This document shows positions 7,250 to 15,050 of a stretch of 64,000 bases of DNA, in pieces. The notes under the pieces are model-generated. The model was not told where the DNA came from and did no database searches. It worked only from the letters and a program-made list of their open reading frames with translations. How positions within the stretch are numbered: the first letter of the stretch is position 1; each line of letters opens with the position of its first letter. This DNA comes from Phycisphaerae bacterium (GTDB taxonomy: Bacteria; Planctomycetota; Phycisphaerae; Phycisphaerales; SM1A02). The stretch spans positions 1-64,000 of the forward strand of contig JAEUIU010000058.1 in NCBI GenBank assembly GCA_016795065.1, in the 5' to 3' direction. Made by a program: the position numbers and the translations under genes.

Positions 7250-8644
7250 TCATCGCTGGAAATCGTAAATCGACCCGAGCCCGAGGATACGGGTGAGTTC
7301 GTCCAACGCCGTGCGCGACTCCTCGAGCAGCCGCGGGTCGGCGAGTTCGCTCGGCCTCAGCTCGGTTCGATAGTGTCGATCCGCCCAGGCATCGAGCTGG
7401 CGGTGGAGATCGGGTGAGTAGAACGCACTCCTGTTGGCTGTGGCAATTTCCGAGTCGGTGAGCTGCACGCGAAGCCTCAGACAGGCAGGGCCTCCGCCGT
7501 TTCGCATGCTCTCCCGAAGATGCATGAAATGCACAGCACGAATCGGATTCGTCGGATCCGACACGATGCGGTCCAGTGCCGCCGAAACGGCCGGCTCCTC
7601 CTGCGACTCGGTCGGGGCGACGATGACCATGCCGCCGCCGCTGGACTCGGGAATCGACAGGAGCTGCGAATTGAAGAGGTATGACTTCACCGCCTGCTCG
7701 ACACCCACATCGCTCGCCCGCACGGTCACGACCACGAGATGGGGGACGCGCTGGCGAAGGGCCTCGATGGTGCCGGCCTGATCGGCGAAGGCGAGCTCGT
7801 GGGCAAGCAGCACATTGCCGTTGCCGACACTGATCACGTCATTGTGAAAAACGCCTGCGTCGATCGACTCGGATCGCTGTCGGGCGAACACGCAGGAGGC
7901 CGGATCCAGCCGATGCAATCGGGCGACGGCCTGCGACGCCAAGAGCGTCTGCCGGGCCGGGAACCGCTTCGGCATCTCGCTCTCGCGCTCGCTTCGGCCG
8001 TAGACGAAGAAATGCACGCCGCGCCCGCCGTGACCGACGAGCCGCGTGTGATTCGCCGCTCCCTCATCACCGAAGGCATCGGCCGAGGGAAGCGGCGCGT
8101 GATGGACGAAGCGTTCTGGATCCCGGAAGATCGCCTGGAGGGCGCGCCCGGTCACGCTCGGCTCGATCGAGCGGTGGAACATCGACCGCAGGTTGGCGGG
8201 CGTGAAGTGCACCTTGCCGTCGGCCGCATCGCAGGAGGGCGCGACGGTCGCGGCGTTCGCGGTCCACATCGCCGATGCGCTACAGGTCCGGGCGAGGAGG
8301 AGGAAATCCTCGGCCGCGGCCTTCGCGATCACCTCCGCGTCACTCCCGCCAAAGCCAAGCGACCTCAGTGTCGGCAGGTGAGGCCGCTCATGCGGCGGAA
8401 GAAACCCCTGCGGAATGCCCAACGACGCGACGAACGCCGCCTTGGCGATTCCCTGTTTCACTGCCTCGCGCGGCGCCGAGACACTGCCTTCATTGGACGT
8501 GCTGGCGACGTTGCCGAATGAGAGGCCGGCATAGTTGTGCGTCGGACCGACGATGCCGTCGAAGTTCGCCTCGCTGAGCGTCGGACGCGCACTTTCCGAT
8601 GTGGACCCAGCTTTGGTCAGGGGTTCAGGCGTGGACTCAGGCAT
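7250..8644 (-). CDS. astB: N-succinylarginine dihydrolase
   Basis: Hydrolyses N2-succinylarginine to N2-succinylornithine, 2 NH3 and CO2, second step of the arginine succinyltransferase (AST) pathway; cytoplasmic. 464 residues, close to the E. coli enzyme. Hallmarks: ANFDGIVGPTHNYAGLSFG at the N terminus, PPHERP, GDEGAANHTRL, GVFHNDVI (catalytic His region) and NGGGPACLRLR with the catalytic Cys at about 388. A GAGGAGA Shine-Dalgarno precedes ATG 8644. The other AST genes are not in the window; the gene lies 64 bp downstream of an aldo/keto reductase on the same strand and may share its transcript. Confidence 0.95.
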   Translation of the reverse strand: MPESTPEPLTKAGSTSESARPTLSEANFDGIVGPTHNYAGLSFGNVASTSNEGSVSAPREAVKQGIAKAAFVASLGIPQGFLPPHERPHLPTLRSLGFGGSDAEVIAKAAAEDFLLLARTCSASAMWTANAATVAPSCDAADGKVHFTPANLRSMFHRSIEPSVTGRALQAIFRDPERFVHHAPLPSADAFGDEGAANHTRLVGHGGRGVHFFVYGRSERESEMPKRFPARQTLLASQAVARLHRLDPASCVFARQRSESIDAGVFHNDVISVGNGNVLLAHELAFADQAGTIEALRQRVPHLVVVTVRASDVGVEQAVKSYLFNSQLLSIPESSGGGMVIVAPTESQEEPAVSAALDRIVSDPTNPIRAVHFMHLRESMRNGGGPACLRLRVQLTDSEIATANRSAFYSPDLHRQLDAWADRHYRTELRPSELADPRLLEESRTALDELTRILGLGSIYDFQR

Positions 8645-8708: not shown

Positions 8709-9647
8709 TCACGTCAGCGCCGACCATTCGCCGCCGCCCGCCCGGGCTTTCGCGAACGACGAGCGAATCGCGTCCACCACATGATGCGGAAGCGGACCGC
8801 GCGACGCGTTCGCGAGGTTCTCCAGGGCCCGATCAATCGACGTCCCACCGACGATGGCGGTGTGGACGTGGGGAAACGAGAGCGTGAAGCGAATCGCCAG
8901 TTCGGACCATCCGCTCACGTCGGGCGCGACGCGGGCCAGGTCAAGACCCATCGCCGCGAAACGCTTTCGATAAGGATCGACGTAATTGTGATAGCGCTCA
9001 TAATGCTGGTCGCGCGGGCGCCAGCATCCGTTGGCGATCGAACGCTTGGTCAGCACCGCAACGCCGTGCTTTGCCGCGGCAGGCAGGACCTGCTCGGTGT
9101 TCACCTGGTCGACCAGACTCAGGCTCGTTTGGAGCACGCTGATGCCCGGCTGTTGGACCGCCCAAAGCGCCGCCGCGTTGTCCCCGGAGTACCCCGCGAA
9201 CCGGATCTTTCCCGCCGACCTCGCCTCCTGGAGCGCCTCGAATGGCCAGCCCTCACGAATGACGTCGAGCGGGAGGGAGTGAATCAGCATCACGTCGATG
9301 ACGTCGGTATTGAGTCGCCGAAGCGAACGGTCGATCTGGGCGGAGAGCTCTTCCTTGCGCGTCGCCTGCACCCATCCCTTTTCGGTTGAGTCGGCGCCGC
9401 ACTTCGAGACGAGGATGAACTCGTCGCGCCGGCCACCGAGGGTCGCGCCGATGGTCTCCTCGGCCCCCATGTAGGCGGCGGCGGTGTCAACGACATTCAC
9501 GCCCTCATCGAGCAGGCGGTTCATCAACCGGCCAGCCGATTCCCGCTCGGAGGCAAGCAGCCCGACCGGAGCCGAGCCGAATGCGACGGGAGAGACCGAA
9601 AGACCGGTGGTTCCGAATGGGCGGCGATGGGTGGCGGCAAGAAGCAT
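8709..9647 (-). CDS. Aldo/keto reductase
   Basis: 312 residues, NAD(P)H-dependent (beta/alpha)8 oxidoreductase. Near the N terminus RPFGTTGLSVSPVAFG is the family opening; VNVVDTAAAYMGAEETIG carries the catalytic Asp and Tyr, LVSKCG the Lys and VMLIHS the His. The C-terminal half has HTAIVGGTS, the usual cofactor-binding end. Substrate unknown. Start is uncertain: ATG 9647 gives the usual N terminus, but ATG 9704 is also possible, with GAGGA upstream and 19 more residues; the latter would overlap the divergent gene start by two bases. Confidence 0.85.
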   Translation of the reverse strand: MLLAATHRRPFGTTGLSVSPVAFGSAPVGLLASERESAGRLMNRLLDEGVNVVDTAAAYMGAEETIGATLGGRRDEFILVSKCGADSTEKGWVQATRKEELSAQIDRSLRRLNTDVIDVMLIHSLPLDVIREGWPFEALQEARSAGKIRFAGYSGDNAAALWAVQQPGISVLQTSLSLVDQVNTEQVLPAAAKHGVAVLTKRSIANGCWRPRDQHYERYHNYVDPYRKRFAAMGLDLARVAPDVSGWSELAIRFTLSFPHVHTAIVGGTSIDRALENLANASRGPLPHHVVDAIRSSFAKARAGGGEWSALT

Positions 9648-9689
9648 GAGTTGACCGGGGGAAGCCTTGGAGCAACGACGACGGCCCCG

Positions 9690-9695
9690 TATCTT
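9690..9695 (+). promoter_or_regulatory. -10-like TATCTT with TTGGAG at 17 bp
   Basis: TATCTT ends 7 bp before ATG 9703; TTGGAG at 9667-9672 is spaced 17 bp upstream and is one of the few plausible -35 boxes in the series. No Shine-Dalgarno precedes the start. Confidence 0.45.
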
Positions 9696-9702
9696 CGTCG
9701 CC

Positions 9703-12510
9703 ATGGCGCGTTCCTCAAGTCAGGCATGGATTGTGGCGGGGCTGTTGACAAGTGCGGTCGCCGGCCCGGCCATCGCCCGGCAGGAGGTCTCGCCGGACGC
9801 GCTCGCCGCCACCGACGTCGTTTGGGCGTCGCCAAGTCGCGACGAACACGGTTCGATGCCGATCGGCAACGGCGACCTCGCGGCCAACGTGTGGTGGAAT
9901 GAGCGCGGCGAGCTTTGGATGTACCTGTCGAAGTCGGACGCCTGGGACGACAACGGCCGCCTGCTCAAGCTGGGACGGATCGCGATCGCACTTGAGCCGG
10001 CGATGACGCCCGAGAGCTTTCGACAGCGGCTCGACCTGAGCGAGGGCGAGATCGAGTGCTCGATCGGACCCGAGGGTCGCGCGGTCGAGTTCCACGTGCG
10101 CGCCGACGCCCACCGGCCTGTGATCGTCATCGAGATCGAGACGCCCGAGCCGGCCACGGCCCGGGTTTCGCTTGAGCATTGGCGCAACGCCGCGCGCGAC
10201 GTGAAGGAACTGAGTTGGAGCGACGTCTACTGCTCCGATCACAACGCCCCGGGTGTGCAGCCCACGATCACCGGCGCCGACATTGTGCCGCCGATCGAAG
10301 CCGGGCCGTTGGGGGCGGAACTCCTTTGGTACCACTTCAACGACCGCACCCCGATTCCGGCCACGTTTGCGTTGCAGGGACTTGGCTCGCTTCTTCCCGG
10401 CTATCGCGACCCGATTCTGCATCGCGCCTTCGGTTGCCTCGTCACGGGCCCGACTCTGGAGGCCCGCGGCGAACGGGCTCTCGGTTCGGCACAGCCTTCC
10501 CGACGGCATCGCATCGAGGTGTGGGCGGCAACGCAACAGGCAACGGACGCCGAGAGTTTCACAACGACGCTTCGAAGCCTCGCCCGAAGCGCTGCCGCGG
10601 ATTCGCCAGAGCGTTGCGCCGAAGCGCACCGCCGATGGTGGGACGCGTTCTGGGGTCGCTCCTGGATACGCGTCAGTGAGAGCTGCCTCGCCCGCACCTT
10701 CCGCCTGCCAGACAACCGACACCCGGTGCGCATCGGGCTTGACTCGCAGGGAGGCAATCGCTTCCGCGGGAGAATCGACAACGTGCTGGTCTACAGCCGC
10801 CCGCTCGGCGCCGAGGAGATCGCCGCGATGACGAATGGCCGGGCCCCAGCGGATGCCGTCCTGGCTTGGGCCACCGGCGGACCCGAGGAGGTACCCGACT
10901 CGGTCACGCTCGATGGTTCCACCGGTGTCAGTGTTGCCGCCTGGATCACGCCCGAGACCCAAGACGCCGGCGGCGGACGGATCGTCGATAAGGCGACGGT
11001 CGGATCCGCCGACGGATGGCTACTGGATACCTATCCAGGCAACTCGCTTCGATTCAGCGCGGGTAGCGTCGCTGCGACGCTCGACGCTCACCTCACTCCC
11101 GGAAAGCGCGTCTTCGTCGTTGGAACCTACGACGCCCGCGACGGGCGCCGGCGAATCTACATCGACGGCGAACGAGTCGCTGAATCGGCGGCCGAACCAC
11201 CCGCCTCGGAGACCGTGAATCGGGCCTACGCGCTGCAACGCTACATCACGGCCTGCGCGGGCCGGGGAGGGTCGCCGATCAAGTTCAACGGCTCGCTCTT
11301 CACCGTTCCCCGCAACGGCCACGATGAGGGTGATCCCGACTATCGCAAGTGGGGGCCGGGGTACTGGTTCCAGAACACGCGCTTGGCCTATTGGCCGCTT
11401 CTGGCCAGCGGGGACGTCGATCTCACCGACGCCTTCTTTGCCATGTATCGCGACGCGCTGCCGCTGGCGATCGCCCGGTCCCGAACGGTCGAAGGGGATC
11501 GAGTCGCGCCGGGCGGCGCCGCCTTCCATGAGACGATCGCCTTCTGGGGACTGCCCGACAACTCGACGTTCGGGTGGAAGCGCGACGGCGCGACGGCCGG
11601 CGAAGTGCTCAATCCCTACATTCGCCATTACCGCAGCGGATCGATCGAACTGCTAGGTATGGCGATCGAGCGGTACGAATACCGTCCTGACGAGGAATTC
11701 GCCCATTCGACGATCCTTCCGCTCGCCGATGCGTTCCTCACCTTCTACGCGAGCTTCTATCCGCGCAACCCCGATGGAACGATTCGCTTCGAGCCGGCCG
11801 CGTCGCTCGAGACTTGGCACGATGCCACCGATCCGCTTCCGGAAATCGCCGGCCTGCGCTGGGTGATTCCGAAGCTGCTCGCCCTCGGGCCGACGTTGGT
11901 CGATGATGGCCGTCGGTCGGTTTGGACGGCGCTGTTGCGCGCCCTTCCGCCCATCCCGCGAGGCGGGGATCCCGCAGGCCCGGTCCTTCGGCCGGCAGCG
12001 CGATACGGCTCCCTTGCCAACATCGAGAACCCCGAGCTCTACGCGATCTTCCCCTATCGCCTCTTTGGCGTGGGGAAGCCGGAGCTGGATATGGCCCGTC
12101 GAACCTATGACCTTCGCGCCAATCGGACCAATGTCGGTTGGTGCCAGGACTCGATCCAGGCGGCGCATCTGGGACTCGCCGAAGAAGCCGCGTCGCTGGT
12201 GACTCGGCGAGCCGCACAGAAGGACGCGAAGAGCCGCTTCCCCGCATTCTGGGGGCCGAATTTCGACTGGGTGCCCGATCAGGACCACGGTTCGAACATC
12301 CTTACCACGATGCAGTCGATGCTGATGCAGTGCGATGGAAAGCGGATCCTCTTGCTTCCCGCGTGGCCGCGCGGATGGGACTGCGAGTTCCGCCTGCACG
12401 CTCCGGGCAATACGGTGCTCACCGGATCGGTGCGCGATGGGCATGTTGCGGCGCTCCGCGTGTCGCCACCGGAGCGGCTCGAGGACGTCACCATCCTGCG
12501 GGCGGATTGA
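9703..12510 (+). CDS. Secreted DUF5703 glycoside-hydrolase-like protein with inserted LamG module
   Basis: 935 residues with signal peptide (to about residue 25). The N-terminal part (SPSRDEHGSMPIGNGDLAAN, YLSKSDAWDDNGRLLKLGR) is the DUF5703 beta-sandwich; the C-terminal part is an (alpha/alpha)6 barrel related to GH65/GH95-type enzymes (CAGRGGSPIKFNGSLFTV, YWFQNTRLAYWPLLASGD, LLLPAWPRGW). These are exported glycan-degrading candidates; activity is inferred from fold only. Odd: between GRSWIRVSE (~326) and NRAYALQRYI (~507) sits a LamG/concanavalin-like insert whose last strands (RFRGRIDNVLVYSRPLGAEE) precede its first strands (DGSTGVSVAAWITPE, IYIDGERVAES). The gene precedes a discoidin protein and a transglutaminase-like protein on the same strand. 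Confidence 0.8.
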   Translation: MARSSSQAWIVAGLLTSAVAGPAIARQEVSPDALAATDVVWASPSRDEHGSMPIGNGDLAANVWWNERGELWMYLSKSDAWDDNGRLLKLGRIAIALEPAMTPESFRQRLDLSEGEIECSIGPEGRAVEFHVRADAHRPVIVIEIETPEPATARVSLEHWRNAARDVKELSWSDVYCSDHNAPGVQPTITGADIVPPIEAGPLGAELLWYHFNDRTPIPATFALQGLGSLLPGYRDPILHRAFGCLVTGPTLEARGERALGSAQPSRRHRIEVWAATQQATDAESFTTTLRSLARSAAADSPERCAEAHRRWWDAFWGRSWIRVSESCLARTFRLPDNRHPVRIGLDSQGGNRFRGRIDNVLVYSRPLGAEEIAAMTNGRAPADAVLAWATGGPEEVPDSVTLDGSTGVSVAAWITPETQDAGGGRIVDKATVGSADGWLLDTYPGNSLRFSAGSVAATLDAHLTPGKRVFVVGTYDARDGRRRIYIDGERVAESAAEPPASETVNRAYALQRYITACAGRGGSPIKFNGSLFTVPRNGHDEGDPDYRKWGPGYWFQNTRLAYWPLLASGDVDLTDAFFAMYRDALPLAIARSRTVEGDRVAPGGAAFHETIAFWGLPDNSTFGWKRDGATAGEVLNPYIRHYRSGSIELLGMAIERYEYRPDEEFAHSTILPLADAFLTFYASFYPRNPDGTIRFEPAASLETWHDATDPLPEIAGLRWVIPKLLALGPTLVDDGRRSVWTALLRALPPIPRGGDPAGPVLRPAARYGSLANIENPELYAIFPYRLFGVGKPELDMARRTYDLRANRTNVGWCQDSIQAAHLGLAEEAASLVTRRAAQKDAKSRFPAFWGPNFDWVPDQDHGSNILTTMQSMLMQCDGKRILLLPAWPRGWDCEFRLHAPGNTVLTGSVRDGHVAALRVSPPERLEDVTILRAD

Positions 12511-12570: not shown

Positions 12571-13065
12571 ATGTTGTTGGCAGCAGCTCTCGCGGTCGCG
12601 GCGCTTCAGTCGGATGCTGACCTGAACGAGAAGGCTCGATTCGGGTCGGTCATATCGGGGGATTCGATCCTGAGGTGCAGTTCCACCTCGCCATGGGACG
12701 AGCCGGAGTTTCATCTCTCGTTGCTTGGCCCTGGACATGATCCCTTCGCGTTCCACACCGCCGAGGAGGATCGCCCTTGGGTCCAGATCGACCTCGGGCG
12801 CGCCCGGCAGGTCACGGGCATAGCGATCGCCAATCGCAGCGACGGAAACGGGGGCAGAACGAGAGGGCTGGCGATCAGCATCTCGACCGACGCGATCGCC
12901 TGGAACGAGGTCGCCTCGGTGTCCGGACCGAAGGCCGACTGGAGCGTCTCGCTTCTCGAAGGCGACCGACCTCGCGAGGCGCGATACGTGCGCATCACTC
13001 TTTCCGAGAGGGGCTACCTCCATCTCAACCGGGTCCGCGTCTACGGTCGGGGAGGTGCGGGATGA
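12571..13065 (+). CDS. Secreted discoidin (F5/8 type C) domain protein
   Basis: 164 residues: a short signal MLLAAALAVAALQ, then one F5/8-C domain covering nearly the whole protein. Domain markers are PWVQIDLGRARQVTGIAIANR, ISISTDAIAWNEVAS and EARYVRITLSERGYLHLNRVRVYG. Such domains bind carbohydrate or other ligands as non-catalytic modules; here it is free-standing. It lies 60 bp after the DUF5703 protein and its TGA overlaps the next ATG (ATGA), so it is translationally coupled to the transglutaminase-like gene. A glycan-binding partner of the upstream hydrolase is inference. Confidence 0.8.
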   Translation: MLLAAALAVAALQSDADLNEKARFGSVISGDSILRCSSTSPWDEPEFHLSLLGPGHDPFAFHTAEEDRPWVQIDLGRARQVTGIAIANRSDGNGGRTRGLAISISTDAIAWNEVASVSGPKADWSVSLLEGDRPREARYVRITLSERGYLHLNRVRVYGRGGAG

Positions 13066-15050
13066 ACGGAGTGTTAGCAGCTCTGATCGCCACGTTGGTG
13101 ACGACCTGCGCTTCGGCCGACCTGCCGAGACTCAACGATGCCCCGGTCGAGGCGGTGGCTGCCCACGCCAGGGATCGGATCTCGCACGGTGAGCTCGCTG
13201 CCCTTGGGGAGGACCTCGCGAAGGAGCTCGCCCCTTTGGCGAAGGAAGGGAGCGCCGAGAGGCTCGCCTCGATCGCCACCCGGCCGCAGGTTGCGTTGGC
13301 TCTCGCCCAGCATGCGTTCCTCGCGATCGGCGGCGCGGGGCTTGACGCGATGAGGACCGAAGAGGGTGGCCCGGACTTCACGCGATGGCTCATCGCCGAC
13401 CGAGAGACGATGGAGGAGTTCCTAACAACCGGCGCGCCGCCGACGAACCCATCGAAGGCGATCGCGATCCTGCATGCGATCTGGATGGCCGACCGCGCGA
13501 TCGAGAGCGGACACCTTCGACGCCTCGCGGTGGCGACGGCACTGGAACACTCGGTGCCGATCAGGCCCTGGTCGGAATGGGACGATTCTGCTGCGAGCAC
13601 GATCGACCCGGTTGCTCGCTACCGCTTTTACCGCGATCTCCACGCGAAAGGCACGCTGTTTCCGGGATTCGAAGCGCTTGCCACCTGGGAGCTGCGCCGC
13701 GTCGTCGACCTACCCCTGTATGACGAGGACATCGCGTGGTTCCACACCTCATTGCCTGGGAAGCTCGCCGACGGCACACCACTGGGCTCGCAGCGGGCGA
13801 TCGGCAATGCGGCGTTCCTCATTCCCTATCGCGACACCAGTCCGACGAACGGCAAGAGCGTGCAGTTAGGCAAGTCGTTCTACGACGACAAGCGGCTCAC
13901 GCCAGCGATCATGCTCGAGTACGGCGGAGTCTGCGGCGCGGTGTCGAAGTTCGGCAGCTTCGCGGCGCGGGCCTTCGGCGTTCCGGCCCAGCCGCTCGGG
14001 CAGGAGGGACACTGCGCCTTCTGCTGGAGGCATGAGGACAACGATTGGCGAACTGGCAACTGCGGCAGCGAGGATGACTGGGAAGTCTCGAACCTGCACG
14101 GACTCTGGGGGACGTGGACCGCACGCGGCACGGCGATACCGCTCATGGCATCGCTCCATGCGACGCCGGCGTTTCTCCAGTCCCGGCGCGCATGGCAATT
14201 GTCGAGGTTCGTCGAGTCAGACCCGCGGCGACGACTCGCCCGCGAACTGGAACTTGCCGAGCTCTGCCCTAACAACGTCGAGACCTTCCGTTCGATCGGC
14301 GAGTGGATGCTCGCCTGGGACGAGGCGAGGCCCGACGACCTGCGTCGATTCGCCCGGGGCGTTTTGCGCGGCATGCCCACTGCGCCGCAGATGGCACTCG
14401 ACATCCTGACGAGAGTCGAGGGCGGCAAGGCATTCGCGGCGATGACGACGAAGGACCGCGCCCGATACATCGAGGAGTTGGTCGAGGGTTTCGTCGAAGG
14501 GGCCGGCAAGGCTCCGGCGTTCCCCGGTGGGGAGCGAGGCCTCGGACTGGCATTTCGGGAGACCCTCGGCCGCGGGATCTGGCTGACCATAGGAAAGGTC
14601 AGTTCGTTGGGCGACTGGCCGTACCTCGCCCATCTCGCGATCCTGGACGGAACGCACCGGGCGTTTCAGGACTGGTTGACCTCGAGCAAGCCCGCTGACC
14701 GGGAGCGTGTTGCTGATTTTCTTGCCAAGGTCGCCAGCGAGACTCGCCAGCCGCGATTGGCCGAGCAGGCACTCCCGCGCCTCGTGGAACTCTGCGAAAG
14801 GGACGAACGCCTGCGCGGCCGCACCCAAACCGCCGCCGATCGGATTGCGGCCGCCTACGCCAAGTCCGGACAACCGAACGATGTCCTCCGCGTCTACCGA
14901 TCGATGATCCTCGCCGGCGAACGCCTCGCCCATCGGCCGTGGATCGGGGGTTTCACCGAACGGGCCCTTGCCGCCCGAGGGCTAGCCGGCAAGGCGGATC
15001 CGTCCGCGTCCTCAAGCAACAGCGAAACGAAAAAGCCCCGGACCAAATGA
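13062..15050 (+). CDS. Secreted transglutaminase-like protein with long helical tail
   Basis: 662 residues starting at the ATG overlapping the discoidin stop, with signal peptide MNGVLAALIATLVTTCASA. Central part resembles a transglutaminase-like cysteine-protease fold: YGGVCGAVSKFGSFAARAFG with Cys291 at a helix start, then QPLGQEGHCAFCWR with His317, and a following Asp/Asn region. The C-terminal ~250 residues are helical and TPR-like (FRSIGEWMLAWDEARP, RVYRSMILAGERLAHR). The last codons lie inside the terminator of the tRNA-Ala gene on the other strand. Function unknown; protein cross-linking, amidase or protease chemistry is possible. No close named family recognised. Confidence 0.7.
   Translation: MNGVLAALIATLVTTCASADLPRLNDAPVEAVAAHARDRISHGELAALGEDLAKELAPLAKEGSAERLASIATRPQVALALAQHAFLAIGGAGLDAMRTEEGGPDFTRWLIADRETMEEFLTTGAPPTNPSKAIAILHAIWMADRAIESGHLRRLAVATALEHSVPIRPWSEWDDSAASTIDPVARYRFYRDLHAKGTLFPGFEALATWELRRVVDLPLYDEDIAWFHTSLPGKLADGTPLGSQRAIGNAAFLIPYRDTSPTNGKSVQLGKSFYDDKRLTPAIMLEYGGVCGAVSKFGSFAARAFGVPAQPLGQEGHCAFCWRHEDNDWRTGNCGSEDDWEVSNLHGLWGTWTARGTAIPLMASLHATPAFLQSRRAWQLSRFVESDPRRRLARELELAELCPNNVETFRSIGEWMLAWDEARPDDLRRFARGVLRGMPTAPQMALDILTRVEGGKAFAAMTTKDRARYIEELVEGFVEGAGKAPAFPGGERGLGLAFRETLGRGIWLTIGKVSSLGDWPYLAHLAILDGTHRAFQDWLTSSKPADRERVADFLAKVASETRQPRLAEQALPRLVELCERDERLRGRTQTAADRIAAAYAKSGQPNDVLRVYRSMILAGERLAHRPWIGGFTERALAARGLAGKADPSASSSNSETKKPRTK

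Follow-up and report, generated by a model that had tools for sequence, protein, structure and literature searches.

A circularly permuted LamG module predicted in the interdomain linker of a putative GH139-type enzyme from a Phycisphaerae bacterium

Introduction

The only solved relatives found by sequence for the enzyme described here, P0001, are 9hmb (E 1e-137) and 9hyq (E 7e-106), structures of the GH139 2-O-methyl-fucosidase family reported in PMC12282258. In that paper, the GH139 strand beta17 is described as a small strand that lies between alpha2 and alpha3 and belongs to the C-terminal sheet, and helix alpha3 as located between the N-terminal domain and the toroid; the terms "insert", "DUF5703" and "Planctomyc" do not appear in it.

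P0001 is a 935-aa protein encoded by one intact open reading frame, identified from the frame and its translation, at positions 9703-12507 (plus strand) of the window, i.e., the whole stretch of 64,000 nucleotides analysed. The alignments with 9hmb and 9hyq cover residues 39-325 and 502-933 of P0001 and skip the stretch between. This stretch is a LamG domain in permuted order, and below we describe its host enzyme, its location, its relatives in other bacteria, and the role that it may have.

Results

The GH139-type enzyme and its gene neighbourhood

The N-terminus of P0001 resembles a signal peptide, and its Pfam matches consist of DUF5703_N at residues 40-322 and a Laminin_G_3 match that is split over two stretches. 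No family was matched in an NCBIfam search, and the GH95 catalytic profile PF22124 scored 21.2 bits, below its cut-off of 27. In a Foldseek search with the AlphaFold model of the full-length protein (pLDDT 87.8, pTM 0.87), the GH139 structures 9hmb (TM 0.86, E 2.5e-62) and 9hyq (TM 0.88, both by target length) ranked ahead of GH95 enzymes. By Pfam and Foldseek, P0001 has the GH139 architecture of DUF5703_N, an (alpha/alpha)6 toroid, and a C-terminal beta domain. All seven GH139 active-site residues that were compared are present, with Q411, N412, E561, N639, E641, W683, and D723 of BT0984 (numbering of PMC12282258) corresponding to Q557, N558, E703, N773, E775, W813, and D855 of P0001. They are invariant across 37 aligned homologues, and P0001 is predicted to be active. 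It is probably a secreted GH139-type (DUF5703) inverting exo-glycosidase with an alpha-L-fucoside-like sugar as substrate, a putative specificity that is drawn from family membership; GH139 activity is inverting and directed at alpha-1,2-linked 2-O-methyl-L-fucose. At the position of BT0984 N729, which is part of the GH139 proton relay, P0001 has D861 (window 12283-12285) and 29 of the 37 aligned sequences have Asp, as reported for D766, the activating Asp of the GH95 enzyme AfcA; base activation in this clade may be of an intermediate kind.

Upstream of the enzyme gene, on the minus strand, are genes encoding a succinylarginine dihydrolase (AstB, window 7253-8644) and an aldo/keto reductase (8712-9704), the listed start of which touches the divergent enzyme gene or runs slightly into it. 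Directly downstream, on the plus strand, are genes for a small F5/8 type C (discoidin) protein (12571-13062) and for a 662-aa protein with no Pfam match (13062-15047). No polysaccharide utilisation cluster was evident among the checked neighbours.

Table 1. Features of the P0001 gene and of its LamG insert, with positions in the window.
Feature	Residues	Window position	Strand	Basis
Whole gene, incl. stop: signal peptide, DUF5703_N, permuted LamG, (alpha/alpha)6 toroid, C-terminal beta domain		9703..12510	+	
DUF5703_N, N-terminal beta-sandwich	40-322	9820..10668	+	PF18961, E 1e-63, profile 1-287/287
Strand at left insert border, putative counterpart of GH139 beta17	321-326	10663..10680	+	DSSP of full-length model; PMC12282258
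C-terminal part of LamG fold, placed first	336-374	10708..10824	+	Laminin_G_3 profile 113-151
Motif RFRGRIDNVLVYSRPLGAEE	353-372	10759-10818	+	
Joining segment, canonical C-terminus to canonical N-terminus	375-395	10825..10887	+	Alignment
N-terminal part of LamG fold, placed second	396-500	10888..11202	+	Laminin_G_3 profile 8-110
Motif GVSVAAWITPE	408-418	10924-10956	+	
Signature of permuted modules, R426-x2-D429-K...G-x2-D437-G...L-x-D442-T...R450	426-450	10978..11052	+	
Motif LRFSAGSV	449-456	11047-11070	+	
Motif RRIYIDGERVAES	483-495	11149-11187	+	
Helix at right insert border (putative GH139 alpha3), containing YALQRY	501-520	11203..11262	+	DSSP of model
Q557-N558, equivalent to Q411 and catalytic base N412 of BT0984	557-558	11371..11376	+	9hyq alignment; 37/37 homologues; PMC12282258
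E703, equivalent to catalytic acid E561 of BT0984	703	11809..11811	+	Alignment with 9hyq and homologues

Location of the insert

The insert spans approximately 10681-11202 (residues ~327-500), and the coordinates given by an earlier, sequence-only reading of this DNA were correct. Alignment with insert-free DUF5703 proteins, a check proposed with that reading, sets the same borders: such homologues exist, align through residue 325, and pick up again at 499-502, with only 7-15 residues between the N-terminal and catalytic parts in most of them and 26 in one (L016). By their order in the chain, the strand and the helix that flank the insert would correspond to GH139 beta17 and alpha3. The insert falls between these two elements, and the joins in insert-free homologues are short; the LamG module thus lies in the interdomain linker ahead of the (alpha/alpha)6 toroid rather than in a barrel loop. 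The sequence-only reading had put it between two conserved barrel segments, whereas comparison with crystal structures of GH139 and with the model of the whole protein puts the site in the linker before the barrel. That reading had also supposed that it is the permutation that makes a loop position possible for the fold. The N- and C-terminal ends of a canonical LamG are close together, so permutation is unnecessary for such a placement.

Permuted order of the LamG halves

Tested alone, residues 325-384 match positions 113-151 of the Laminin_G_3 profile (E 3e-7) and residues 385-505 match positions 8-110 (E 3e-13); since both halves match separately, the match is not due to chance. The two halves are complementary, each part of the profile being used once with none duplicated or missing, and when they are swapped in silico, the two stretches become a single continuous match to positions 8-151 of 151 (78 bits). 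The insert covers the profile over its length, with its strands out of the canonical N-to-C order. A relative with a longer form of the module (L010) likewise gives two stretches in its natural order (best 5-110) and one stretch of 5-151 once swapped, and as a control, the remaining LamG domains of this genome that pass the cut-off each match as a single stretch in normal order. In longer relatives (e.g., L010, L012, L052, and L055), the joining segment retains a complete canonical first strand in the alignment. We also built an independent canonical profile of 204 positions from 17 normal-order planctomycete LamGs, to which 46 of 56 permuted modules align in two stretches, with the C-terminal part first in 46/46 and a constant breakpoint at profile positions ~148-157; the modules are ~30-40% identical.

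The insert of P0001 is a complete LamG in circularly permuted order. The sequence-only reading saw C-terminal strands before N-terminal strands, and the true circular permutation that it offered as one explanation is supported by the profiles, by structure prediction, by a breakpoint conserved in ~60 relatives, and by copies of the module at enzyme ends. An assembly or frameshift artefact can be ruled out, because the frame is unbroken and the arrangement recurs at 57 other loci.

Sandwich closure was judged by pTM, pLDDT, and DSSP. Modelled alone with 48 aligned sequences, the insert was predicted by AlphaFold as one confident domain (pLDDT 91.1, pTM 0.86) with high-confidence strands from both halves. 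Foldseek matched it to pentraxin/LamG folds with a probability of ~1, but with TM of 0.3-0.44, rmsd of 8-17 A, and no significant E-value, a poor superposition of the kind to be expected of a sequential aligner on a permuted fold; a phmmer search of the de-permuted module against the PDB gave no match. In two GH95 proteins (L054 and L055), the module starts immediately after the signal peptide (e.g., with "QVPANSHPVRIGADQ" in L054), and a GH95-like protein (L127) ends with "...LYLNGKLVAESP", exactly at the module breakpoint. As copies start or end at the breakpoint in these three proteins, the breakpoints are real domain ends. The insert is predicted to be a single LamG/pentraxin-like domain rather than two remnants.

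Relatives and host enzymes

We scanned 84,980 species genomes for the insert with the pattern G[GSV][SA]DG[FWL]L[LF]D[TRS], which retrieves motif-bearing modules only, and found 57 related loci, all 57 with the permuted order. The module is within DUF5703 enzymes at 51 of these loci and before GH95-type enzymes at five, three of which were confirmed by Pfam, and one locus is cut by a contig end. GH95 enzymes with the module directly after the signal peptide include, besides the two named above, L074. In a third type of host that has no Pfam catalytic family (L118, L089, L122, and L123), the module is near the C-terminus. These large enzymes (e.g., L118:936-3635) have another conserved region after the permuted LamG; a resemblance to MGH1-like/GH94-like proteins in L028 and L089 is weak and far below cut-offs. 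The bacteria with the permuted module belong to the Planctomycetota, Verrucomicrobiota, Lentisphaerota, Kiritimatiellota, and Armatimonadota. At four loci (L040, L076, L061, and L046), the GH139-type enzyme with the insert shares an open frame with further domains (GH38 mannosidase plus F5/8C, GH106 rhamnosidase, GDSL esterase, or ThuA), fusions that may serve as useful hints to the substrate.

When the de-permuted module was used as the query, all matches other than permuted copies were LamGs in normal order with clearly weaker scores, of which the 17 aligned ones lack the charged signature of the permuted modules; no normal-order relative of the signature-bearing module was seen. Because the same module is found in at least three kinds of enzymes across several phyla, we regard the permuted LamG as a genuine and apparently undescribed variant of a common accessory domain; no paper on a permuted LamG or on "DUF5703" was found in the open-access library searched, a scope that makes this weak evidence of novelty.

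Discussion

Possible function of the module

Compared to canonical LamGs, the permuted modules have added R426, D429, D437, D442, R450, D347, P336, and N338 (P0001 numbering). R426, D429, and R450 are present in 56/56 permuted modules vs. 35%, 0%, and 6%, respectively, of the 17 canonical LamGs, and these three fall outside the retrieval pattern; G434-T443 falls inside it, so that the conservation at residues 434-443 is partly due to selection by the scan. This suggests that R426, D429, and R450 are a candidate ligand or metal site. The module of P0001 itself has lost two common LamG core residues (W469 to R and H471 to F), because of which the window copy could be drifting.

The permutation could also be real and the module a structural clamp or spacer, without a ligand, between the N-terminal domain, the toroid, and the C-terminal domain. 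Its position in the interdomain linker and the full-length pTM of 0.87 are in keeping with such a role, as is the fact that the GH139 linker strand beta17 is within the C-terminal sheet (PMC12282258). However, many close homologues do without the module, and the signature recurs with small changes in the modules of other host enzymes, being retained in N- and C-terminal copies on GH95 and other enzymes and thus independent of GH139 neighbours. The signature would therefore belong to the module as such, for example as a site for a glycan or a metal, and would not reflect an interface with GH139, and we consider a ligand-free clamp unlikely, if still the best placed of the alternatives to an accessory glycan-binding module, which is what the conserved residues would point to.

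Origin and spread

In an enzyme tree computed without the insert columns, the insert carriers do not group as a single clade (p-AU 5e-5) and no fewer than 5-6 changes are required, so either losses or repeated gains are needed; these quick trees contain long branches, including the window's own. For the modules, a tree that keeps all GH139-inserted ones in one clade was not rejected and even scored higher (p-AU 0.58). The simplest reading is one insertion followed by several losses. The insert-free L016 is nested among carriers, and its loop SVPTNAAPARDPAPPSR, which joins sequences resembling both insert ends in L010 and L012, is likely the scar left where the permuted LamG was cleanly deleted.

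Repeated entry of the module into GH139 enzymes at the same linker, with the window copy as a separate, later insertion, would agree with the module of P0001 being nearest to those of other enzyme types (45% to L123, and in the quick module tree), with its enzyme part being nearest to insert-free enzymes (46% to L008), and with the presence of insert-free enzymes in the organism's own family and order (L013, L014, L017, L020, and L023). Yet the AU test lends it no support and L016 resembles a loss, so we hold repeated entry to be improbable, slightly more so than a clamp. That the insert consists of two decayed modules, a C-terminal remnant and the N-terminal remnant of another that became neighbours by accident, as the sequence-only reading allowed, would fit the ~20-residue low-similarity segment between the two stretches and the shortened C-part in some relatives (L083 and L082), but it is rejected as extremely improbable by the recurrence of the same halves, order, and breakpoint in all two-stretch modules, by the complementarity of the halves, by the prediction of one confident fold, and by the terminal copies that begin or end at the same breakpoint, the context that we count as the best counterargument.

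We therefore favour, as quite probable, an explanation in which a true permuted LamG in the GH139 linker had a single origin, was then shuffled, and has an accessory glycan-binding role. One LamG/pentraxin-like sandwich would be plugged into the interdomain linker, with its ancestral termini joined by a short linker and its new termini in the long loop that connects the "YxDGxxV" and "RIGxD" strands. The permutation would have had a single origin, for which the simplest route is a tandem LamG duplication that later lost its outer halves; the module may then have been shuffled in permuted form among related (alpha/alpha)6 enzymes. It may bind a glycan, perhaps via a metal, and hold the exo-enzyme on a polymeric substrate, with the module-specific charged residues that are kept across hosts as the candidate binding site. 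The permutation would determine the rim of the sandwich that is turned to the enzyme and the one that is left free.

A broader proposal, which we offer tentatively and with slightly more doubt than confidence, is that a distinct, gene-encoded permuted-LamG family with its own conserved site for a ligand or metal had a single origin and then spread through (alpha/alpha)6 glycosidases (GH139, GH95, and the unnamed family) of PVC bacteria and Armatimonadota as a plug-in for the linker or either end, the permutation having been selected to turn the binding rim toward the substrate. The occurrence of insert-carrying, insert-free, and scar-bearing homologues of one enzyme makes this aiming role testable by deletion. 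Annotation tools call the module a partial or doubled LamG and thereby hide it; once recognized, it points to an enzyme family without Pfam assignment.

Comparison with known systems

Compared to Laminin_G_3/LamG (PF13385; concanavalin A-like, pentraxin-like), the module has the same core residues (W414, G345, F354, G356, L368, and G489), a similar length, and similar predicted strands, and both of its halves score to the profile; it differs in the order of the halves and in R426, D429, D437, D442, R450, and D347, which are rare or absent in canonical relatives. BT0984 (9hyq) and SDT91673.1 of Verrucomicrobium (9hmb) share with P0001 the same three domains (27-32% identity, TM 0.86-0.88 by target) and the active-site residues, whereas neither of these solved enzymes has the LamG insert. 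The GH95 enzymes L054, L055, and L074 have the same permuted module, breakpoint, and signature, although they belong to a different enzyme family and carry the module at the N-terminus rather than as an insertion. It is uncommon for a natural, gene-encoded circular permutation to be conserved across phyla and to be shuffled between enzymes. The legume lectin concanavalin A is naturally circularly permuted through post-translational peptide ligation, and it too is a sandwich of this broad fold class in permuted form, but it is a plant lectin, whereas the permuted LamG described here is a gene-encoded enzyme module.
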